64,000 nucleotides of DNA from Paenibacillus baekrokdamisoli (GTDB taxonomy: Bacteria > Bacillota > Bacilli > Paenibacillales > Paenibacillaceae). The position numbers were made by a program, and so were the translations under genes. Location: the NCBI RefSeq assembly GCF_003945345.1, contig NZ_AP019308.1, positions 6,877,001 to 6,941,000 of the forward strand, read 5' to 3'. Position 1 is the first letter of the stretch, and every line of letters starts with the position of its first letter. Below are positions 13,294 through 56,619 of the stretch, one piece after another. The notes beneath the pieces are model-generated. The model did no database searches. It was not told the origin of the DNA and worked only from the letters and a program-made list of their open reading frames with translations.

Positions 13294-14497
13294 AATTCGG
13301 GATCAGCTCGATTTGGACAGTGCCATGTCAGATGAGGCATTCATGGAGCGAATTGAGCAGACCGTCTTTCAGTGGTGCCGTCTACATCCCTTAACAGCAA
13401 GCGGGAAGGTACAGCTTGTTAGGCGCTTGTTCCACTCCTTCCGGGGATTAGATTTACTTCAGCCCTTAATGGAGGATGAGACAGTAACGGAAATTATGAT
13501 CAATAGTCATGAGGAGCTGTTTGTGGAGCGTGCAGGGCAGTTAAGCCGTTTACCGCTCACATTTGAAAGCCAATCGCGTCTGGAGGATTTAATACAGTCC
13601 GTCGTTGCGGGAGTGAATCGGGTCGTGAATGAATCCTCACCTATAGTGGATGCCAGGCTGAAGGATGGCTCAAGGGTTCATATCGTTCTGCCGCCTGTGG
13701 CCTTGAAGGGACCCACAATGACGATTCGTAAATTTCCGGATAAGCCGCTTCAAATCACGGATTTAATAGCGCTGGGCGCGTTAAGCGAGGAGTCAGCCGA
13801 GTTTCTTCAGCAGCTTGTTGCCGCTAAGTACAATATCTTCATAAGCGGGGGAACGGGCTCGGGGAAAACCACCTTCCTGAATGCTTTGTCTCAATACATT
13901 CCTTCTGACGAGCGAATTGTAACCATCGAGGATTCGGCTGAGCTGCAAATACGTAACGTGCCAAACTTAGTTTCATTAGAAACACGTAATGCCAATACAG
14001 AAGGAAAAGGCGAAATCACGATACGAGAGCTGATCCGTGCTTCACTTCGGATGCGACCGAATCGAATTGTTGTTGGGGAAGTGCGGGGTGGTGAGGCGAT
14101 CGATATGCTGCAGGCTATGAATACTGGCCATGATGGAAGCTTGAGTACAGGGCATTCAAACAGTGCGCGGGATATGATGGCTAGGCTTGAGACGATGGTT
14201 CTTAGCGGAGCTGACTTGCCAGTTGCAGTCATTAGGCAGCAAATTGGATCAGCCATCGATATTGTCGTTCACCTGTCTAGAATGCGTGATCGAAGTCGGC
14301 GTGTAACCGAAATTTGTGAAATAACCGGTGTTGACGGAGGCGAGGTTAGCCTTCAATCGCTTTATCGCTTTGAAGAAGAAGGAGAGCAGGACGGCCGTGT
14401 AATTGGCGGTCTAGTAAGAACGAAGCAGCGATTGCAGCGGACCTGGAAGCTGCAGATGGCAGGTTTTACGCCGCTGAAAGGAGATGACGAGCAGTGA
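13259..14497 (+). CDS. tadA: TadA/CpaF secretion ATPase
   Basis: Motor ATPase for Flp pilus assembly, 412 residues. Walker A is ISGGTGSGKTTFLNAL, followed by an Asp box (IVTIEDSAELQI), Walker B (RPNRIVVGEVRGGEAIDMLQ) and a His box (NTGHDGSLSTGHSNSA), all family hallmarks. Of several in-frame starts I prefer ATG 13259, with GGGGGAG 6 nt upstream; it lies inside the tadZ end. The 3' end overlaps tadB by 4 nt (GTGA). Confidence 0.93.
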   Translation: MQEEVVMQLKAKIRDQLDLDSAMSDEAFMERIEQTVFQWCRLHPLTASGKVQLVRRLFHSFRGLDLLQPLMEDETVTEIMINSHEELFVERAGQLSRLPLTFESQSRLEDLIQSVVAGVNRVVNESSPIVDARLKDGSRVHIVLPPVALKGPTMTIRKFPDKPLQITDLIALGALSEESAEFLQQLVAAKYNIFISGGTGSGKTTFLNALSQYIPSDERIVTIEDSAELQIRNVPNLVSLETRNANTEGKGEITIRELIRASLRMRPNRIVVGEVRGGEAIDMLQAMNTGHDGSLSTGHSNSARDMMARLETMVLSGADLPVAVIRQQIGSAIDIVVHLSRMRDRSRRVTEICEITGVDGGEVSLQSLYRFEEEGEQDGRVIGGLVRTKQRLQRTWKLQMAGFTPLKGDDEQ

Positions 14498-23494: not shown

Positions 23495-24010
23495 TTAACC
23501 AACTTTAATGCTAATCAGCCATAGCTGCTTAATCTTTTGGCTGCCATCATTAATTTCTTTCTCGACATACGTAAACGTAACAGCAGCATCATCGGCTATT
23601 TGACTTACTTTCTCGGACATCTTGTCATCCACTTGGAATACAGATGTTGTACCTTCTTTTGTCTTGATTTCAATGGAATTTGTATCTGCTTGACCTATAT
23701 AGGTGCCTTCTCCTTGCTTCTCTGCACTAGCAGTAGGCTTTGTACTAGGTTCGGTTTTATCGTCATTTGCTGGAGGAGTGGGTACTGTTGGTTCTGGCTT
23801 GACAACATTGGAGTCTGTTCCACCTGAAGAGTTGATACCTCCGGTGGTACTATCATTTGTAGTCCCTTCATTATGTACCTTTTCGTTCACACTATTTGCT
23901 GCAGGACTATCATTATTTTTCCCGCATCCAGCTGTAATTGAGAATACTACCATTACACTAATAATAAAAGCAAAAGCACGCTTACCTGTCTTCTTGTTCG
24001 TTTGATTCAT
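23495..24010 (-). CDS. secreted lipoprotein, low-complexity linker plus small beta domain
   Basis: 171 residues. Type II signal peptide with lipobox SITAGC (Cys at about 29), a Ser/Thr/Pro/Gly/Asn-rich linker of about 65 residues, then a C-terminal module (YIGQADTNSIEIKTKEGTTS then VFQVDDKMSEKVSQIADDAA). No family recognised. AGGAGGA lies 9 nt before ATG. What stands out is its leader: one full structured unit immediately before the ribosome binding site and a second tandem copy upstream, related to the tkt leader. Confidence 0.75.
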   Translation of the reverse strand: MNQTNKKTGKRAFAFIISVMVVFSITAGCGKNNDSPAANSVNEKVHNEGTTNDSTTGGINSSGGTDSNVVKPEPTVPTPPANDDKTEPSTKPTASAEKQGEGTYIGQADTNSIEIKTKEGTTSVFQVDDKMSEKVSQIADDAAVTFTYVEKEINDGSQKIKQLWLISIKVG

Positions 24011-24017
24011 GATGTGA

Positions 24018-24196
24018 TCCTCCTAAAAGTTTTTGCGTGGCTCTGCCTGATAGGCCGAAGAATGAGGCTATCAAGCAAAAACTACTTCGAAAGCATAACC
24101 TAAGTTTTTGCGTGGTTCTGCCTGATAGGCCGAAGAATGAGGCTATCAAGCAAAAACTACTTCGTAAGCATAACCCAAGTTTTGCGTGGCAAAACT
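24018..24196 (-). promoter_or_regulatory. tandem structured leader (75-bp unit) of the lipoprotein gene
   Basis: Two 75-bp direct repeats (24028-24102 and 24103-24177, only a few mismatches) and a collapsed third unit (24178-24196). Read in the gene's sense, each full unit is CTT(A/T)CGAAGT, then AGTTTTTGC, an inner hairpin TGATAGCC/GGCCTATCA, GGCAGA, then GCAAAAACT. The outer arms AGTTTTTGC and GCAAAAACT pair. The third unit keeps only the outer stem (AGTTTTGC-CAC-GCAAAACT). The proximal unit runs directly into CTTTTAGGAGGA, the ribosome binding site. The tkt leader has the same plan with a different but also self-complementary inner hairpin. Confidence 0.6.
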
Positions 24197-24280
24197 CACA
24201 TTTAACGCAAGTCTATACCTTCTTTAACGTATACATACCCTTGAAAGTTTCTCTTCAATCGTTAAACAGCCGCAGCATGC

Positions 24281-24312
24281 AACGAAAGCCGCCAGAATTG
24301 GCGGCTTTCGTT
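24281..24312. terminator. hairpin at the end of the DUF2621 gene
   Basis: Perfect 14-bp stem AACGAAAGCCGCCA/TGGCGGCTTTCGTT with a GAAT loop. The right end overlaps the stop codon of the leftward gene. The T tract is poor on both strands, so termination strength is uncertain. Confidence 0.6.
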
Positions 24313-24742
24313 ATTTATTCAATAAATGTTTATAGGGCAAATAATCAATGTTTTGTTTATCCAAGAATGTAATGAGGCTGCGGTAATCTCTCTTAGGGGT
24401 CGCGCGTATGTAGCCTTCTATGCAGTGATTCTGCGAGACTTCAGTAGCTCCGCTCTCTACAGCAACCTGCGCGATCTTGGCCGCAATAGAATGTCTAGCA
24501 ATATCACGGAAGGCGCCTGGTACCGGAGCAACCAACCGTTCCAGGAAGGTCTTTGAATCCTCGGGCCACATGCCGCGGCTGCGTTCCACCCAATAATTTT
24601 GCCAATCAAGCTTGGATTTGCCGTCCCGTTGAGGCAGTACCTTCAAGAATTTCCTGAACATAAAATAACCGCCAATCGACATGAAACCAAGCATGACGAA
24701 GGCCCAGAACACGATAAAATACATAAACCAATTGTTGCCCAT
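24311..24742 (-). CDS. DUF2621 family membrane protein (YneK-like)
   Basis: 143 residues. One N-terminal transmembrane helix (FIVFWAFVMLGFMSIGGYFM), then a cytoplasmic domain with LERLVAPVPGAFRDIARH and GYIRATPKRDYRSL. This resembles Bacillus YneK/DUF2621 from memory; function unknown. AGAGGTG lies upstream of the ATG. Confidence 0.75.
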   Translation of the reverse strand: MGNNWFMYFIVFWAFVMLGFMSIGGYFMFRKFLKVLPQRDGKSKLDWQNYWVERSRGMWPEDSKTFLERLVAPVPGAFRDIARHSIAAKIAQVAVESGATEVSQNHCIEGYIRATPKRDYRSLITFLDKQNIDYLPYKHLLNK

Positions 24743-25043
24743 GCCTCTTTTTCACCTCTACTACGAATTATACATTATTTGGTGGCGTCGAAGCCGCCTT
24801 ATTATGAGAAGTTCTCAAATCGCATTTTGAAAATTGATTCTATTATAAGCTATGCCCGATACACCTCGCAACCTGTTGACCGGTCAGAAGAAACTTGAAG
24901 ATCTACCGAATGTTGGGTCTAGTCCTTCTTCTTGAACCTAGATTTATTTCATTATTCCTTGTAAAATAGGAAGGACAAGCATTTCAATAGGTTAGCCATC
25001 TCATATGGGAAGGCTGGCAATAGAAAGGGAGCGAATAATAGCA
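24743..25043. other. divergent intergenic region between DUF2621 and nfo genes
   Basis: No gene seen. On the minus strand TATAAT (complement of 24767-24772) could be the -10 box for the DUF2621 gene. On the plus strand TAAAAT near 24962-24967 could serve nfo. Neither has a clear -35 box. The AAAGGGAG before nfo lies near 25024. Confidence 0.4.
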
Positions 25044-26171
25044 ATGTTGAAAATTGGATCTCACGTTTCATTTTCCGATAAGGGCTTGCTTACTGCGGCT
25101 ACTGAAGCTGCATCTTACGGTTCCAGCTCATTTATGATTTATACTGGCGCTCCTCAAAACACCCGGCGCAAGCCGATTGAAGATTTATACATCGAAGAAG
25201 GCAAAGCAGCAATGAGCAAGGCCGGAATTGACGAAATCGTCGTTCACGCCCCGTATATTGTTAACCTAGGTTCTTATAAGGATGATACATTTGAGCTTGC
25301 GGTTCGTTTTCTCCAAGAGGAGATTCGTCGCACGCATGCAATCGGTGTTCGTAATATCGTTCTGCATCCAGGTGCGTACACAGACAAGGATGCCGAATAT
25401 GGAATTGCACGCATTGCCGAAGGCTTGAACGAGGTGCTTGAAGGCACTAAAGAAACGAATGTCAACATCGCTCTGGAAACGATGGCGGGCAAAGGTACGG
25501 AAATTGGACGCAGCTTCGAGGAAATTGCGTCGATTATGGATAAGGTTCGCGACAACGAACGTCTGACTGTATGTATGGACACCTGCCATATGCATGATGC
25601 AGGCTATGATTTAGTCGGCAATATCGATGGCGTACTGGAAGACTTTGACCGTATCGTGGGTCTTAATCGTGTCGCGGTTGTTCACGTCAACGATAGCAAG
25701 AACCCTCGCGGAGCGGGTAAAGACCGTCATGCTCCAATCGGGGCAGGCTGGATCGGTTATGAAGCCATTCGCAATATCGTCCATCATGATGGGCTGAAGG
25801 GCCGACCATTTATTTTAGAAACACCATGGATTGGACAAGTAGACAAGACACAGCGTCCGATGTATGAAGCAGAGATCGCTCTGCTTAGGGGCGACGCGAT
25901 GAGTCGCTTCGGCGGTGAGTTTTTTGAGGATGTGGAGCGTCTTCGTTTCTTCTTCGATAAGGAAGAAATAGACCACCGTGCTTATGTACTTCATACGTGG
26001 GACGTACTTAAAAATGATGCCAAAGCAAAAAAAGCGGATCCGCGCGAGCCGATGGACCGTCTATACGAGCTAGTTGCCGAGCATCGTGTACTGCCTGAGT
26101 TGTCTGAAGAAGCAATCAATCAGCGTATTACAGCATGGTTTGCAGGTAAAGCGCTTCTCGTCAATGTTTAA
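25044..26171 (+). CDS. nfo: endonuclease IV (AP endonuclease) with C-terminal extension
   Basis: Zinc-dependent apurinic/apyrimidinic endonuclease of base excision repair. Motifs: [79 protein letters not shown] and FILETPW, which include the expected His, Glu and Asp metal ligands. The core ends near residue 285. A further ~90 residues (from about [14 protein letters not shown]) are not part of the usual ~290-residue enzyme and look helical; their role is unknown. ATG 25044 gives the family N terminus MLKIGSH. Confidence 0.93.
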
Positions 26172-26228
26172 GCTAGATCCAATAGCAGCGGAATAACTAA
26201 TTGTTTATGGAAGGAAGTCAGTCGTCTT

Positions 26229-27128
26229 ATGCCTAACACGTATCAACCCCAGCAATCTACACAGCGACCGGACAAGAGTAACCGAGCGAGAATGCTGATC
26301 TCATGCCCAGACCGCTCGGGAATCGTAGCGGCAGTGTCTCATTTTCTTTATGAGCATGGAGCGAATATCGTTCAATCCGACCAATACTCGATGGATCCAG
26401 GGGGCGGAATGTTCTTCATTCGTTTTGATTTTGATTTAAAGGATTTGGAACGTGAGCTGCCTGTACTGCAGGAGGATTTTGCACGCGTAGCAGATCGGTT
26501 CAGTATGAAATGGAGTACATTCCGTGCGAGCCGTAAGAAACGGTTAGCCATCTTTGTATCCAAAGAGGATCACTGTTTGCTTGAGCTGTTATGGCAGTGG
26601 CAAGCCGGTGATTTGGAAGCGGAAATTGCCATGGTTATCAGCAATCATAATGATATGAGACCGCTGGTCGAGTCATTCGGTATTCCTTTCCACCACATTC
26701 CGGTTACGGCTGATAACAAAGCAGAGGCGGAAGTGAAACAGCTTGAGGTTGTTTCAGATAAAGCCGATTTGATCGTACTTGCTCGTTATATGCAAATTAT
26801 TTCTCCAAAGTTTATTGAACAATTTCCGAACCGGATTATTAACATTCATCATTCGTTCCTGCCAGCATTTGTTGGTGGCAAGCCTTATGCACAGGCTTTT
26901 AACCGAGGTGTCAAAATCATCGGAGCAACAGCTCATTACGTAACTGAGGAGCTGGATGGCGGGCCGATTATTGAACAGGATGTGCAGCGTGTCAGTCATC
27001 GCGACAATGTCGATGATTTGAAACGAATTGGTCGTACAATTGAACGTGTCGTACTTGCGCGAGCAGTGAAATGGCACTCCGAGGATCGACTTCTGGTGCA
27101 CCAGAATAAAACGGTTGTTTTTAATTAA
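26229..27128 (+). CDS. purU: formyltetrahydrofolate deformylase
   Basis: Hydrolyses 10-formyl-THF to formate and THF. The N-terminal ACT-like domain (ARMLISCPDRSGIVAAVSHF) is followed by a formyltransferase-type domain with VISNHNDMRPLVESFGIPFH, NIHHSFLPAFVGGKPYAQAF and IGATAHYVTEELDGGPII, including the catalytic Asn/His/Asp set. 299 residues, normal length. GGAAGGAAG lies before the ATG. It is followed by an intrinsic terminator, so it is separate from tkt. Confidence 0.94.
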   Translation: MPNTYQPQQSTQRPDKSNRARMLISCPDRSGIVAAVSHFLYEHGANIVQSDQYSMDPGGGMFFIRFDFDLKDLERELPVLQEDFARVADRFSMKWSTFRASRKKRLAIFVSKEDHCLLELLWQWQAGDLEAEIAMVISNHNDMRPLVESFGIPFHHIPVTADNKAEAEVKQLEVVSDKADLIVLARYMQIISPKFIEQFPNRIINIHHSFLPAFVGGKPYAQAFNRGVKIIGATAHYVTEELDGGPIIEQDVQRVSHRDNVDDLKRIGRTIERVVLARAVKWHSEDRLLVHQNKTVVFN

Positions 27129-27181
27129 AGACGCGCATTGTCAGTTCTGTGGATAGATTCAAGCATTTTACTGACAATAAG

Positions 27182-27240
27182 AAGGGTCAAGCTGAGGTCT
27201 ATCGCCAAGATTTGAGGCGGGGCTCGCTTTGACCCTTTTT
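27182..27240 (+). terminator. terminator after purU
   Basis: Stem AAGGGTCAAGC/GCTTTGACCCTT with a long loop, followed by T5. Confidence 0.8.
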
Positions 27241-27304
27241 GCAATTGATTTTCGATAATTATTGCAGCGCTGTCGCATTAAGGATGGAAATGGGTTAAAG
27301 GTAA

Positions 27305-27313
27305 TGGTACAAT
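27305..27313 (+). promoter_or_regulatory. candidate extended -10 for tkt
   Basis: TGGTACAAT, a TGn-extended -10 box with a weak -35. If used, the tkt mRNA would have a 5' leader of about 180 nt that contains the structured element at 27411-27490. Confidence 0.4.
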
Positions 27314-27410
27314 ATCTCGTAGCCAGTGCGTGACAAACGCATATTAACAGAGAGAATAACATTTTTTCAAAAGTAAAGCCTATACAGAAGTAGAAAGTAA
27401 ACAAGATCCA

Positions 27411-27490
27411 TTCTTACGAAGTGAGTTTTTGCTCGAGCTTACCGATAATCGGTACGTTGGGGCAGAATTTCGCAAAAACTTTTAGGAGGA
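27411..27490 (+). promoter_or_regulatory. structured leader of tkt, related to the lipoprotein leader
   Basis: Shares CTTACGAAGT, AGTTTTTGCT, GGCAGA and CGCAAAAACTTTTAGGAGGA with the leader at 24018-24196, in the same order. The outer stem is 27424-27432 with 27472-27480. The inner part differs in sequence but is again self-complementary (TACCGAT-A-ATCGGTA, 27440-27454), which hints at compensatory change. The ribosome binding site follows the stem immediately. It could be a regulatory RNA or a mobile leader repeat. Confidence 0.55.
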
Positions 27491-27499
27491 ACTAACGCA

Positions 27500-29515
27500 A
27501 TGACAGTTACACAAAAATCAGTTGATCAGCTCTCCATTGATACGATCCGTACACTTGCAATTGACGCAATTGAGAAAGCAAACTCGGGTCACCCAGGAAT
27601 GCCTATGGGTGCTGCTCCAATGGGGTATCAATTATTCGCAAAAAGTATGAAGCACAATCCATCCAATCCAACTTGGATTAACCGCGACCGTTTCGTGTTA
27701 TCAGCGGGTCATGGTTCAATGCTGCTATACAGCTTACTACACCTATCCGGTTATGGTTTGTCAATCGACGAGCTGAAGAACTTCCGTCAATGGGGCTCCA
27801 AAACACCAGGTCACCCGGAATTTGGTCACACAGCGGGTGTTGATGCTACAACAGGTCCGCTTGGACAAGGGGTGGCAATGGCGGTTGGTATGGCAATGGC
27901 TGAGACACAGCTGGGCGCAACTTATAATAAAGACGGTTTGAACGTTGTTGACCATTTTACATATGCAATCTGTGGAGATGGCGATCTAATGGAAGGCGTC
28001 TCCAGTGAAGCGGCTTCCCTTGCTGCACATTTGAAGCTTGGTAAATTAGTTATGCTTTATGATTCCAATGATATCTCACTAGACGGTGAGCTGAACCTGT
28101 CTTTCTCTGAGAATGTTCAAGGTCGTTTCGAAGCTTACGGCTGGCAGGTTATTCGCGTAGAAGACGGTAATGATTTGAATGCACTTGCGAATGCAGTTGC
28201 AGCTGCTCAAGCAGAGACTGGTAAACCGACATTGATCGAAGTGAAGACAGTTATCGGTTACGGCAGCCCGAATAAAGGCGGCAAAGGCGGACATGTGGGA
28301 CCACATGGTTCACCGCTTGGTGCTGACGAAACAAAGCTGACGAAGGAATTTTATGGCTGGAATAATGAGCCTTTCTTCGTACCAGAGGAAGTTCGCGCAC
28401 ATTTTGCAGATGTAAAAGCGAAAGGCGAGAAAGCAAACGCAGAGTGGGATGCCATGTTTGCAGCCTACAAAGCAGCTAACCCAGAGCTTGCTGCGCAGTT
28501 CGAAACAGCTATCAGTGGGAAGCTTCCTGCAGGCTGGGATAAAGATTTGCCTGTTTATACTACTGACGACAAAGCGGTATCCACACGTGTTGCTTCCGGT
28601 AATGCATTGAATGGTCTAGCTAAGAATGTACCGAACCTAGTGGGTGGTTCTGCTGACCTTGAGAGTTCAACAATGACTCACCTTAAAGGCTTGCCTGTCT
28701 ACAAAGCTGGTAACTATGACGGACGCAATATTTACTTTGGTGTTCGTGAGTTCGCAATGGCTGCTGCTATGAATGGTATCGAGCTTCATGGCGGCTTGAA
28801 AGTATACGGTGCAACGTTCTTCGTATTTACCGATTACCTACGGCCGGCTGTTCGTCTGGCTGCGCTGATGAAGCTTCCAGTGGTCTATGTACTTACGCAT
28901 GATAGTATCGCTGTTGGTGAAGATGGCCCGACACATGAGCCGATCGAGCAGCTTGCATCACTTCGTATCATTCCGGACCTGACAGTTATTCGTCCAGCTG
29001 ATGCGAATGAAACTTCAGCAGCTTGGGCTTATGCGCTTGAGAATGGCAGCAAGCCTGTTGCACTCGTTCTGACTCGTCAAAACCTGCCGATTCTAGAAGG
29101 TACAGTCACGAATGCTCGTGAAGGTATTGCTAAAGGCGGTTATGTGGTATCCGAGGCTTCAAACGGTAAACCACAAGCCCAAATCATTGCAACTGGTTCT
29201 GAAGTGCAGCTTGCTGTTGCAGCGCAGGAGGCTCTTGCAGCGGAAGGCATCCAAGTTCGCGTCATCAGCTTACCAAGCTTCGATCTGTTCGAGCAGCAAT
29301 CACAAGCGTACAAAGACTCCGTTATTCTTCCTGACATTAAAGCGCGTCTTGCTATTGAGATGGCTTCACCATTTGGTTGGGAGCGTTATGTTGGCGACAA
29401 GGGAGCTATCCTTGCGATCAGCACATTCGGTGCTTCCGCGCCGGGTAACCGCGTCATCGAAGAGTACGGCTTTACGGTTGCTAATGTAGTTAGCAAAGTG
29501 AAAGCACTCCTGTAG
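27500..29515 (+). CDS. tkt: transketolase
   Basis: Thiamine-diphosphate enzyme of the non-oxidative pentose phosphate pathway, 671 residues. N terminus: [20 protein letters not shown]. ThDP/metal motif: [20 protein letters not shown] with a downstream Asn ([10 protein letters not shown]). The pyrimidine domain has [20 protein letters not shown], and [20 protein letters not shown] is also present. Full length and uninterrupted. AGGAGG lies 10 nt before the ATG, directly after the structured leader. Confidence 0.97.
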
Positions 29516-31662: not shown

Positions 31663-33012
31663 ATGAGTAAAGCCGTTAAATTTGATTACAGTAAAGCGCT
31701 GGCCTTTATCGGGCAGCATGAAGTGGATTATTTAGCAGACCAGGTTCGTGCGGCCCACGATCAGCTGCATAATGGAACGGGCGCAGGCTCAGACTACTTA
31801 GGCTGGATCGACCTGCCAAACAATTATGATAAAGAAGAGTTCTCACGTATTCAACAGGCTGCTGCTAAGATCAAATCCGATTCTGAAGTATTGGTTGTTA
31901 TCGGTATCGGCGGTTCTTACCTTGGTGCGCGCGCTGCGATTGAAATGCTTTCGAATTCCTTTTATAACCTACAACCGAAAGAACAGCGCAAAGGTCCTCA
32001 AGTCCTGTTCGCAGGTAACAATATCAGCTCTACATATGTAACACATTTGAAGCAATTGCTTGAAGGTCGCGATTGGTCCATCAATGTTATCTCCAAATCC
32101 GGTACAACGACTGAACCGGCTATCGCTTTCCGCGTATTCCGTGAAGCACTCGAAAGCAAATACGGCAAGGCGGAAGCTCGCAAACGCATCTATGCAACAA
32201 CGGATCGTGAGAAAGGTGCACTCAAAAAGCTTGCTACAGAAGAAGGTTACGAGTCCTTCATCATTCCAGATGACGTAGGTGGACGCTACTCCGTGCTGAC
32301 AGCAGTTGGCTTGCTTCCAATTGCAGCAGCAGGTATCGACATTGAAGCGATGATGAAAGGCGCGGCTGATGCTACTGCAGCATACAGCAGCCCGAACCTG
32401 GCAGAGAACGAAGCTTACCAATATGCAGCGGCTCGCAACGCGCTTTATCGCAAAGGCAAAGCAACAGAAATCCTCGTAAACTACGAGCCGTCGCTTCACT
32501 TTGTATCGGAGTGGTGGAAACAGCTGTTTGGCGAAAGCGAAGGAAAAGACTACAAAGGGATTTTCCCAGCGGCAGTCGATTTCTCGACAGACCTTCACTC
32601 GATGGGACAATTCATTCAAGAGGGTAACCGCAATATCTTCGAAACGGTTATTCAAGTAGGTCATGTTGCCGAGCAAATCACGATCGAGCATGATGCGAAT
32701 GACTTGGATGGACTTAACTTCTTGACTGGCAAGACAATGGACTTCGTTAATAAAAAAGCATTTGAAGGTACACTGCTTGCTCATACGGATGGTCAAGTGC
32801 CAAACTTTATCGTCAACATTGCTGATCTAACACCATACACATTTGGTTACCTGGTTTATTTCTTCGAGAAAGCTTGTGGAATCAGCGGCTATCTGCTTGG
32901 CGTGAATCCTTTCGACCAACCGGGCGTTGAAGCTTACAAAAAGAACATGTTCGCGCTTCTTGGCAAACCAGGCTACGAGAAAGAAAAGGCGGAGCTTGAA
33001 GCTCGCTTATAA
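31663..33012 (+). CDS. pgi: glucose-6-phosphate isomerase
   Basis: Interconverts glucose-6-P and fructose-6-P. 449 residues, the compact Bacillus-type form. Motifs: [54 protein letters not shown] and [13 protein letters not shown] 31663 follows GGGAGG; the longer frame starts inside that ribosome binding site. Three nt separate it from yvyE, so the two are probably co-transcribed. Confidence 0.96.
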
Positions 33013-52088: not shown

Positions 52089-52964
52089 TTGGACAGCTAT
52101 CAATTAGGATCCATATATGAGATTCAGCCGACGGTTAATTTCATCGGTCATGCGGAAGCGGCTGCTGGTATTGCTTGGGGGCCGCGGTTCATCCCGGACT
52201 ACCAGCTTTTTCATATCGTATCAGGAGAAGCTGAAGTTTATTATGGTGCAGAACATTATGTACTGGGGCCCGGAGATTGTACCTTCTACGGCCCCCAAGT
52301 TCCTCATAAGCTAGTTGTAATAAGACCCGTTGTTTATTTCAGCCTCCACTTTCAGCTGCGGCATTCATCGCCGGAGCCTCAGCATCCTGCCTACAACATT
52401 CAACCTTGCAGCGAGGGGGATTTACTTCAACATACGAAGCTTAACTACTATCTGGGTATTCCTAACCATGAACCTTTATTAATTCCACCTGTGTTCTCTA
52501 TGCCAGCTTTGGAGTCAATCATGCTGCGTATTGCGAATGAATATCGGAATGAACAGACCGGCTATGCGATCGTGCTTCGCGCATTACTGACAGAATTGAT
52601 TGCAAGCATCGTCAGAGATCGTTTAGCAGCACGTCCGCACTCACTAGAACGAACGAAGGTCGACCCAGCTCTTCGCGCAATCGCTATGCATCCGGAGAAT
52701 AATTGGACGATTCCACAGCTGGCTGCGTTATGCGGCTATCATGTCATCTATTTCTCTTCCTTATTTAAGAAATGTACAGGTGTGAGTCCCAAGCAATATC
52801 TCATTACAGAGCGCATTCGCAAAGCTAAATCCTATCTATTGGGAGGGGAGAAGCTGGAAACTATTGCAGGCAAGCTAGGTTATACCAGCATTCACTATTT
52901 TTCGAGAAACTTTAAAGAGGAGACAGGTCTGAGCCCAACTGAATTTAAGCAGCAGGAGCAGTAA
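52089..52964 (+). CDS. AraC family transcriptional regulator
   Basis: 291 residues. N-terminal cupin sensor domain (IVSGEAEVYYGAEHYVLGPG, PHKLVVIRPVVYFSLHFQL), then two helix-turn-helix motifs (TIPQLAALCGYHVIYFSSLF and LETIAGKLGYTSIHYFSRNF) ending KEETGLSPTEFK. The TTG start at 52089 follows AAAGGAG by 11 nt; no better in-frame start is visible. Divergent from the PhyH gene, its likely target. Confidence 0.9.
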   Translation: MDSYQLGSIYEIQPTVNFIGHAEAAAGIAWGPRFIPDYQLFHIVSGEAEVYYGAEHYVLGPGDCTFYGPQVPHKLVVIRPVVYFSLHFQLRHSSPEPQHPAYNIQPCSEGDLLQHTKLNYYLGIPNHEPLLIPPVFSMPALESIMLRIANEYRNEQTGYAIVLRALLTELIASIVRDRLAARPHSLERTKVDPALRAIAMHPENNWTIPQLAALCGYHVIYFSSLFKKCTGVSPKQYLITERIRKAKSYLLGGEKLETIAGKLGYTSIHYFSRNFKEETGLSPTEFKQQEQ

Positions 52965-54804: not shown

Positions 54805-56619
54805 ATGAAAGTTGTACTGGCGACCTTGAACGCCAAATTTATCCATACTTCACTCGCGCTTCGCTGCCTGAAAGCTTTCAGTCAGCATGAATTTGATATT
54901 GATATCGCAGAATATACGATCAAAGATCCGGCTATGAACATTGTAGCGGATTTGTTCTCGCGAGACCCCGATGTTGTCGGATTCTCCTGTTATATATGGA
55001 ATATTGAAGAGACCATAACCGTTATCGATATGCTGCGCAAAATTAAGCCTTCGATCCGAATCGTCCTTGGCGGTCCGGAAGTGAGCTACGATACTGCCTT
55101 TTGGCTGGAGCGGCTGACTCAGGTAGATTTTATCGTCGTTGGCGAAGGGGAAGAGACGTTCCACCACCTGCTGACCGAGCTGCGTGATAGCTGTAAGCTG
55201 CATATGGTATTTGGAGTTGCCTATCGCAAGGAACATGCCAATGGCGAGATTGAGATTATTGTCAATCCACCACGCCCGAAGCCAAGTCTAGCTTCGCTTC
55301 CGTCACCTCATCGCTTCCCAGAGGATGTGGCTAACCTAGGAAGTCGAGTTACTTATTTTGAGACAAGCAGGGGCTGTCCTTTCAGCTGCCAATTTTGTCT
55401 ATCGAGTATTGAGGTTGGTGTCCGTTACTTCGATATTGAGCGTACCAAGGCGGACCTGCTGTACTTAATTGATTCCGGGGCAAAGCTTATTAAGTTCGTT
55501 GACCGTACCTTCAACATCAAGCGGGATTATGCGCTAGAGATGTTTCGATTCTTAATCGAAAATCATCGAGGCTGTGTATTCCAGTTTGAGATAACGGCTG
55601 ATATTATGCGTCCTGAAGTGCTTGATTATTTGTCTGAGCATGCGCCTCCTGGTGTATTCCGATTCGAGATCGGGGTTCAGTCGACAAACGATATTACGAA
55701 TGAAGCGGTTCAACGCCGGCAAAATTTTGCCAAGCTGACTCGCACCGTGATGAAGGTAAAAGAAAGCGGAAAGATCGATCAGCATCTTGATTTGATTGCC
55801 GGCCTCCCGCATGAGAATTACGATTCATTCCGTAAAACCTTCAATGACGTATTCGAACTGCGTCCCGAAGAAATGCAGCTTGGGTTTCTGAAGATGCTGC
55901 GTGGCACAGGTATGCGCCTTGATGCCGAGAAGCACGGATATATCTATATGGATCGCGCACCTTACGAAATTCTGGGCAATGATATTTTACCGTTCTCGGA
56001 TATCGTAAGAATCAAACGCGTGGAAGATGTACTAGAGAAATATTGGAATGCACATCGAATGGATCATGCCCTCCTTTATCTAGTGGAGAGAGCTTTCACC
56101 TCACCATTCGACTTCTTCCAACAGTTCGGTGATTTCTGGGAAGGTCGCGGCTGGCAAAAAATCGGACATCAGCTGGAGGACTTGTTCTCACGGCTGTGGT
56201 CATTCTTGTCTGAGGCGCATTCGCTGCGAGCGAAGCAGGAAGGTCTTGTTTGGGAGCCGGATGTTGTGCTTGGCTTGATGAAGCTGGATTATTTCCTGGG
56301 ACATAAATATAAGCCGCGCAAGCTATGGTGGGATTTTACGATGGACAAATCGGTCTGGAGCGGCTGGATGCAGCGTCTTGCTCAACGACCCGAGGAAGTA
56401 TCCGAAGCGTTTCAGGCTCTCGGCCTTGCTGAGAGAGAGCTGCAAAAGCATGCAGTAATTGAGCTGCTTCCGTTTGATCTCGAACTTTACTTGCAGGAAG
56501 GCATCGTGTCCAAGGATAAGGAGACGCTCCTAATTGTGATTTATAATGGTGGCGGTAAAGAGGACGTGACGTCTGCTAAGCCATTTATGTTATCTTTAGT
56601 TAAAGCAGAGCATTCTTGA
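54805..56619 (+). CDS. B12-binding-domain radical SAM protein (DUF4080)
   Basis: 604 residues. N-terminal cobalamin-binding-like domain (about 1-130; IRIVLGGPEVSYD, VGEGEETFHHLL), then the radical SAM cluster motif RGCPFSCQFC with Cys191, Cys195 and Cys198, and barrel motifs (KFVDRTFNIKRDYALEMF, FEIGVQSTNDITNEAVQR). The C-terminal ~200 residues correspond to DUF4080. The reaction is unknown. GAGGGATTG lies upstream; 9 nt separate it from the next reading frame. Confidence 0.9.
   Translation: MKVVLATLNAKFIHTSLALRCLKAFSQHEFDIDIAEYTIKDPAMNIVADLFSRDPDVVGFSCYIWNIEETITVIDMLRKIKPSIRIVLGGPEVSYDTAFWLERLTQVDFIVVGEGEETFHHLLTELRDSCKLHMVFGVAYRKEHANGEIEIIVNPPRPKPSLASLPSPHRFPEDVANLGSRVTYFETSRGCPFSCQFCLSSIEVGVRYFDIERTKADLLYLIDSGAKLIKFVDRTFNIKRDYALEMFRFLIENHRGCVFQFEITADIMRPEVLDYLSEHAPPGVFRFEIGVQSTNDITNEAVQRRQNFAKLTRTVMKVKESGKIDQHLDLIAGLPHENYDSFRKTFNDVFELRPEEMQLGFLKMLRGTGMRLDAEKHGYIYMDRAPYEILGNDILPFSDIVRIKRVEDVLEKYWNAHRMDHALLYLVERAFTSPFDFFQQFGDFWEGRGWQKIGHQLEDLFSRLWSFLSEAHSLRAKQEGLVWEPDVVLGLMKLDYFLGHKYKPRKLWWDFTMDKSVWSGWMQRLAQRPEEVSEAFQALGLAERELQKHAVIELLPFDLELYLQEGIVSKDKETLLIVIYNGGGKEDVTSAKPFMLSLVKAEHS

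Follow-up and report, generated by a model that had tools for sequence, protein, structure and literature searches.

The stretch of DNA analysed here, which we refer to as the window, comprises 64,000 nucleotides of Paenibacillus baekrokdamisoli (contig NZ_AP019308.1, positions 6,877,001 to 6,941,000) and contains two genes whose 5' leaders are built from the same small structured repeat. One is the transketolase gene tkt (27500..29515, plus strand; an open reading frame (ORF) matching Pfam PF00456 at 2.8e-150), which starts with the ATG at 27500 and is preceded by a Shine-Dalgarno (SD) site AGGAGG at 27484..27489 and a single repeat unit at 27409..27481, all on the plus strand. The other is an ORF for a 171-residue protein (23495..24010, minus strand) that has no Pfam match and whose start looks like that of a lipoprotein, so that we call it the lipoprotein gene; its ATG lies at 24010, its SD site AGGAGG at 24019..24024 (minus strand), and ahead of these stands a tandem array on the same strand. 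The SD-proximal unit of this array (24027..24097) and the second unit (24102..24172) form a direct repeat (D1) of 75 bp with 96% identity between the two copies, and a third, distal unit (24177..24211) has collapsed to a minimal hairpin, GTTTTGCCACGCAAAAC, that was read directly from the sequence. With a covariance model (R1) that leaves out the SD site and was trained on rows including the units at 24027 and 27409, the two full lipoprotein-leader units score 79.7 and 75.2 bits, the tkt unit 66.8 bits and the collapsed unit a weak 11.9 bits (E 0.73).

The unit at 24027..24097 consists of a core, TATGCTTTCGAAG, an outer stem, AGTTTTTGC/GCAAAAACT, an inner hairpin and the segment GGCAGAGCC; the tkt unit combines the same outer stem with a diverged core, CATTCTTACGAAG, and a different inner hairpin, TACCGAT/ATCGGTA. 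In each leader the outer arms pair without a mismatch; the inner arms, whose sequence is not the same in the two leaders, are also complementary to each other, with a one-base bulge in the inner stem of the lipoprotein copy. There are exactly two occurrences of the sequence GCAAAAACTTTTAGGAGGA in the window, one ahead of each gene (24018-24036, minus strand, and 27472-27490, plus strand), where 0.03 matches are expected in shuffles of the window even if up to three mismatches are allowed. An earlier interpretation made from the letters alone (the sequence-only reading) had pointed out these shared leaders ending in an SD site and the pairing of their arms, correctly on both counts; the two full tandem copies that it described stand as well, and the collapsed third, which it had credited with the outer stem alone, is present as a minimal hairpin. 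For the tkt leader, the fold predicted to have the lowest energy leaves the outer stem unused and has an alternative pairing with the stretch GGGGCAGAA instead. Compared with shuffled sequences the stability of the fold is clear for the tkt leader only (z -4.1; the other copies give -1.7 and -1.5).

Comparison with copies elsewhere shows that all units share one anatomy, i.e. a core TATGCTTNCGAAG, a hairpin whose sequence varies by locus, and CTT, and that the final unit of an array continues into TTTTAGGAGG, which is the SD site of the gene. Units are mostly about 35-42, 57-70 or 72-82 nucleotides long and are joined within an array by a linker such as AAGCT. The outer stem is usually the one found in the window, with divergent forms such as GCTTCAC/GTGAAGC, GCATTTC/GAAATGC and GCGCTTTAC/GTAAAGCGC; the longer units have an extra inner hairpin that is free in sequence and is often accompanied by the same segment as in the lipoprotein leader. 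Between core and stem many units have GTAG, and others GTGAG, GCGAG or GCCAG. In the 111 last units that were tallied, and that had been found with a loose form of the motif, the tag reads TATGCTTNCGA(A/T)G, the free (eighth) core base being C in 38, A in 38, T in 33 and G in 2. Two further candidate features were discarded: a second small hairpin, NNAGTTTTTGCTNN, exceeds expectation only slightly in a set of 60 units, and a tiny leader ORF, ATGCTTNCGAAGTAG, has an unconserved stop codon and lacks an SD site in the inner copies.

The hairpins of the units are real. The longest Watson-Crick stem has a mean of 8.6 pairs against 5.2 in base-shuffled units and reaches at least seven pairs in 104 of 111. 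In an alignment of 17 units, 81% of the cells pair over the structure as a whole (94% in the outer stem, 64% in the inner one), and the score for covariation, 0.234, compares with 0.113 in shuffled alignments, none of 500 of which reaches the observed value, so that the covariation proposed in the sequence-only reading is borne out; the structure was, however, chosen on the same 17 sequences, and palindromes maintained at the DNA level would score equally. Two-sided changes occur in 11 of the 22 pairs (8.1 in shuffles; 14 of 500 shuffles reach 11), and they comprise all ten inner pairs and a C-G to U-A change in a small GGC/GCC hairpin. The outer stem has none in this alignment, its variation being visible in a by-eye comparison of other loci. 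A strand test based on wobble pairs gave 14 G-T against 20 A-C for the element. T-box leaders served as controls and gave 27:3 for ten orthologous leaders (p 6e-5 for the contrast with the element) but, depending on the setting, 10:8 to 20:13 for 29 different leaders of the window's own genome; six Rfam RNAs gave 4:3 and unrelated upstream DNA 28:26, i.e. the power of the test is low. The control with 29 T-boxes removed the contrast, and the strand asymmetry of wobble pairs was therefore dropped as evidence. These 29 T-boxes are the matches at E <=0.001 in the window's own genome (G000; L334-L362), 12 of which lie above the gathering score of the family. No tRNA genes, a further control, were found in the window or in the 36 named loci discussed below.

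The genome to which the window belongs (7.26 Mb, a single contig) contains at least 95 units (E <=0.01 with the covariance model) in 52 clusters of one to five units each, which is a lower bound because 150 of the 2696 first-look candidates were scored. Simple patterns agree with this: 43 matches to the end motif (12 of them exact) are found when two mismatches at most are allowed, against none for the reversed control, and the core TATGCTTNCGANG is matched exactly at 105 places, the reversed pattern at five. Twelve further places with the core are listed outside the 52 clusters, eight of which are elements whose stems are different or degraded, the remaining four (L296, L298, L299 and L300) resembling chance matches.

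The position of the clusters is tied to SD sites in the direction of the gene, as the sequence-only reading had proposed on the basis of two leaders. In the own genome an ORF of 60 or more residues comes immediately past the SD site at 47 of the 52 clusters, and an ORF of 59 residues at one more; the other four are the cluster at 52729, where the ATG follows only two nucleotides past the SD site, the one at 55493, where no ORF was found, and degraded copies at 641887 and 1422614. Nor are copies elsewhere scattered without regard to gene starts or strand: of 36 named loci that were fetched with a pattern lacking the SD site, 34 continue directly into one, and 32 of these 34 reach an ORF of at least 60 residues or the end of the available sequence. 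The two that fail a strict SD rule are L275, with the weak site GGGAGG, and L289 (424, plus strand, in P. cymbidii), where about 45 additional nucleotides separate the array from the SD site; the ORF rule fails at L271 (no ORF) and L288 (47 residues). Of the 128 arrays parsed from all loci, 111 have an SD-like site, followed in 109 cases by a start triplet 3-14 nucleotides downstream. This count is weaker than the two preceding ones, since it comes in part from loci fetched with a pattern containing the SD site and since every SD-like hexamer 25-125 nucleotides past the final core was accepted, as was every start triplet. Judged from their sequences, the 17 arrays without such a site are chance core matches, degraded copies or misread units. 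The longest stem ends 1-3 nucleotides ahead of the SD hexamer in 81 of the 111 arrays, and the upstream units of arrays have no SD site of their own.

From their translations we take the genes behind the arrays to include glpX, hemB, def, pdhB, prs, dnaK, leuS, ffh, atpC, gatA, tkt and leuA, a family search (Pfam) having been made for tkt only. Upstream of 29 of the 52 clusters, an open frame of 80 codons or more on the same strand ends no more than 200 nucleotides away, and about half of the clusters may therefore be operon-internal, these frames being mechanical ones and not proven genes.

Units within an array are nearly identical. The nearest unit in the same array has a median identity of 96% (70 units with a partner; lowest 62%), compared with 82% for the nearest unit at another locus of the own genome (95 units; highest 92%); mixed arrays, such as L106 and L304, also exist. 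The flank ahead of the first core contains a partial unit of variable length in 81 of the 111 arrays (by a loose score) and none in the other 30, and no fixed left module was seen among them.

The presence of the element at orthologous genes is patchy. For eight genes preceded by an array in the own genome, we collected 95 upstream regions from 12 genomes of the same genus, using a search with joined N-termini, and compared them by eye. Clear elements occur in eight of these regions (leuS of G010 and G011; pdhB of G016; ffh of G002, G013, G015 and G021; def of G016) and degraded ones in three (pdhB of G010, G011 and G013), the atpC region of G006 being doubtful, with a similar sequence in G002 and G015; all other regions have no element. 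The relatives without an element mostly retain the SD site at those genes. The genes tkt and gatA are without an element in 12 of 12 relatives each and leuA in 11 of 11, all three having one in the own genome. At ffh the SD site with its spacer, AGGAGGTGACGATC-ATG, is identical with the element (G002 and G015) and without it (G001, G003, G005, G011 and G012). The cleanest pair of an empty and a filled site is that of acs, where G001 has TTGTAG followed directly by GAGGAGGCG and G002 has CTGTAA, 67 extra nucleotides and then GAGGAGGCG, i.e. the addition lies between the upstream stop codon and GAGGAGG, with minor differences past the SD site. In 20 further regions, of four genes chosen because arrays were known there in some of these genomes, 12 are clearly filled, six are empty and two (pgi of G015 and the L272 gene of G004) look like remnants after loss; at pgi of G015 only a 3' arm, ACGCAAAAACTTTC, is left ahead of AGGAGG. 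The case of pgi is the reverse of that of tkt, as the element is present in G002, G004 and G006 and absent in the window, where the gene starts at 31664. Arrays at the same gene in several related species are found for acs, pepF and pgi.

The search of Paenibacillaceae genomes with a covariance model, which the sequence-only reading had suggested, found the family widely. Model matches at E <=1e-4 occur in 24 of 78 genomes (the own genome included), and the pattern TATGCTTNCGAAGNNNGTTTT occurs in 59 of 148 sampled genomes of the family, belonging to 12 of 19 genera, against one match in total for the reversed control. Within the genus of the window 10 of 16 listed genomes (again including the own one) have this pattern and six (G001, G005, G008, G012, G014 and G018) do not, where it should be kept in mind that a genome without it could still carry units whose stems differ. 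Genomes of the genus that bear arrays include G000, G002, G004, G010, G011, G013 and G015. In the named genome collection a scan returned 36 stretches, 35 from Paenibacillus or other Paenibacillaceae (among them the array-rich species P. mendelii and P. glycinis) and one from Bacillus sp. FJAT-28004.

Taken together, the data are best explained if both leaders of the window are members of a family of small palindromic repeats of the Paenibacillaceae that were inserted just 5' of an existing SD site, in the direction of the gene, and subsequently multiplied in tandem. We assign this reading a probability of about 0.68, which covers insertion next to the SD site by any route and thereby overlaps with an enzyme-driven route considered below, the two differing in the route only. 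That the change was a gain is what we infer from the orthologous sites, and the repeat seems not to bring an SD site but to be placed just ahead of one. The sequence-only reading had named a mobile repeat carrying a ribosome binding site as its alternative; the mobile repeat indeed fits better, the binding site it was thought to carry having seemingly been there before. Since the SD site remains usable, insertion would be tolerated ahead of essential genes.

For the movement step the most likely route would be template switching at the DNA level: a nascent strand ending in CCTCCT would pair with the AGGAGG of another gene, copy one or more hairpin units there and then return. The hairpins would stall the replication fork, tandem expansion would follow by slippage, and the complementarity of the arms would be kept by copying one arm from the other. 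DNA template switching has been put forward as a way in which RNA hairpins arise and are kept (PMC8794818). We prefer this route because the Y1 and Y2 transposases and the reverse transcriptase that were searched for are absent or do not track the element, and because it would account for a right end that is precise where the left one is ragged, for the single orientation and for the complementarity of the arms. The main alternative for this step is an unknown recombinase that would recognise TATGCTTNCGAAG together with the hairpin.

A number of points weigh against insertion ahead of existing SD sites as the explanation. No mobilising enzyme was found in the searches for Y1, Y2 and reverse transcriptase, and no insertion event was observed. 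That a motif of 13 nucleotides is conserved between genera hints at a factor that recognises it; template switching alone leaves the conserved core unaccounted for, and this core points to a binding factor. The arrays at acs, pepF and pgi in several species may have persisted vertically for a function, and because gain follows from parsimony, loss from an ancestor may apply gene by gene. The two genomes of the acs pair, G001 and G002, are not sister strains, and no target-site duplication of the kind expected of a MITE is evident at acs or ffh, a six-nucleotide resemblance at acs (ACGCTG/ACGTTG) being perhaps due to chance. The gradient of older distal units that is expected is not significant (27 arrays, p 0.49), and growth of the arrays from the SD side was rejected accordingly. 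Finally, the low power of the strand test may leave room for selection at the RNA level.

The alternative that survives best, although we consider it rather unlikely, is that a dedicated enzyme working on hairpins in single-stranded DNA moves the repeat, as has been suggested for REP elements and their Y1 transposase, RAYT; viewed on the other strand, insertion would then take place 3' of a CCTCCT adjoining the hairpin. The conserved motif next to a variable hairpin, the single precise end and the single orientation would all suit such an enzyme, as would the likeness to GTAG-tagged REPs as these are described in parts of PMC3733652. The three kinds of enzyme searched for do not follow the element: Y1 (PF01797) has no match in the own genome or in 14 others of the genus and occurs in two of 23 genomes, both of other families; Y2 (PF04986) occurs in one of the 23, the window's own; and reverse transcriptase (PF00078) is absent from the array-bearing genomes G004, G006 and G010. 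Mobilisation by RAYT, by an IS91-type transposase or by reverse transcriptase was thus rejected, as these were not found or are not required. The sole Y2 (IS91-type) transposase among the 23 genomes lies at G000:C1:1965667-1966227 (plus strand).

The sequence-only reading itself had favoured a class of cis-regulatory RNA, with tandem copies as in tandem riboswitches, in which the folded leader would sense something or bind a protein and thereby open or close the SD site, the tandem copies sharpening the response. The sense orientation, the near-constant spacing to the SD site, the co-varying arms, the fold of the tkt leader, which is much better than that of shuffled sequences, and the visible alternative pairings of the 5' arm are what such an RNA would show. 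Against this, the downstream genes, mostly named by recognition, have no evident function in common, and because they are unrelated housekeeping genes a metabolite switch is unlikely; most of the orthologues examined lack the element, although a few genes do have arrays in more than one species; neither the outer nor the inner stem has a fixed sequence, and the outer one has no two-sided change in the 17-unit alignment; and the upstream units have no SD site to control. A match to Rfam, likewise suggested as a comparison, is lacking as well: the window has none, 16 loci searched at E <=0.1 gave only two T-boxes, both outside the arrays, and the 36 named loci gave four riboswitches, none at the position of the element.

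The proposed control of access to the SD site is not supported by folding either. Among 94 of 103 regions (nine had no recognisable SD site) the predicted probability that the SD site is unpaired is 0.39 at 14 filled sites, eight of them from the own genome, and 0.47 at 80 empty ones (p 0.13), in a comparison that counted def of G016, which has an element, as empty and the doubtful atpC of G006 as filled and that did not count ffh of G013 and G021 as filled; in the 47 arrays of the own genome it is 0.42 against 0.36 in base-shuffled leaders (p 0.017). The element thus gives no clear sign of a closed SD site in these predictions, which possibly point to a mild insulating effect. Sequestration of the SD site by a pairing of CUUNC with GGAGG is unsupported too, as the free core base is A in 38 of the 111 last units, which breaks this pairing. 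We therefore regard a cis-regulatory RNA class as unlikely. At leuS of the own genome a full-length T-box match (L082, 2336-2589, minus strand) lies upstream of a three-unit array, which sits between it and the gene, so that a known switch and the repeat occur in one leader.

It is very improbable that the leaders are ancestral ones, lost in most species and homogenised within loci without any movement, for although the arrays shared between species at acs, pepF and pgi and the possible remnants would agree with this, the elements at gatA, tkt and leuA have no counterpart in 12, 12 and 11 relatives, respectively, the acs and ffh comparisons resemble clean insertion, and within a genome the identity between units of separate loci reaches 92%.

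The nearest known kinds of element are REP, CGTC-tagged palindromes and BOX, from all of which the present one is distinguished by its tie to SD sites. According to the parts of PMC3733652 that deal with them, REP elements and BIMEs associated with RAYT are likewise small palindromes with a short conserved tag next to a variable hairpin and many copies per genome. Here, however, the tag is TATGCTTNCGAAG and not GTAG, the orientation relative to the gene is single, the location is ahead of the SD site, and no Y1 transposase was found in the own genome. The CGTC-tagged palindromic repeats, reportedly also without a dedicated transposase (PMC3733652), have another tag, and an association with SD sites goes unmentioned in the passages of that paper on them; its main text contains neither the word Paenibacillus nor the term start codon. 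BOX elements of Streptococcus pneumoniae, in the sections of PMC3049150 describing them, are similar in being interspersed, in the varying copy number of a central module (boxB) and in their predicted stem-loops, and one of them sits between two T-box leaders. By that description they differ from the present element in being overrepresented between convergent genes, where the small pneumococcal repeats are best tolerated, and not ahead of SD sites, and in the order boxA-boxB(n)-boxC with fixed ends, which the present arrays do not show. Tandem riboswitches and T-box leaders are, like the arrays, structured and sometimes repeated 5' leaders; the arrays differ in matching no Rfam aptamer and in preceding unrelated genes, and the T-box of leuS is separate from the array. 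Among the matches listed, no account of the repeat was found by topic or by sequence in the open-licence literature, the sequence leading to four unrelated papers.

Two copies alone would suggest a riboswitch candidate, which is how the leaders were at first understood. A repeat family that stands ahead of the SD sites of housekeeping genes without visibly blocking them can instead be viewed as a natural experiment in the rewiring of translation starts, and with its help one could ask what maintains palindromes whose arms change, selection on the RNA or template switching of the DNA. A more speculative and decidedly doubtful extension is that a mobile 5' leader, spreading by docking on SD sites without a transposase of its own, might equip unrelated housekeeping genes by the dozen with one shared tandem hairpin and with TATGCTTNCGAAG, a motif which an RNA- or DNA-binding factor could use for their joint control.

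Viral contigs were searched as well. The core-plus-stem pattern gave one match, which looks like chance, and the core-to-SD pattern gave one real array, at about 13381-13444 (minus strand) of an IMG/VR contig (L313). This array lies immediately ahead of a phage tail-sheath gene (PF04984), i.e. the repeat reaches phage or phage-tail-like clusters.

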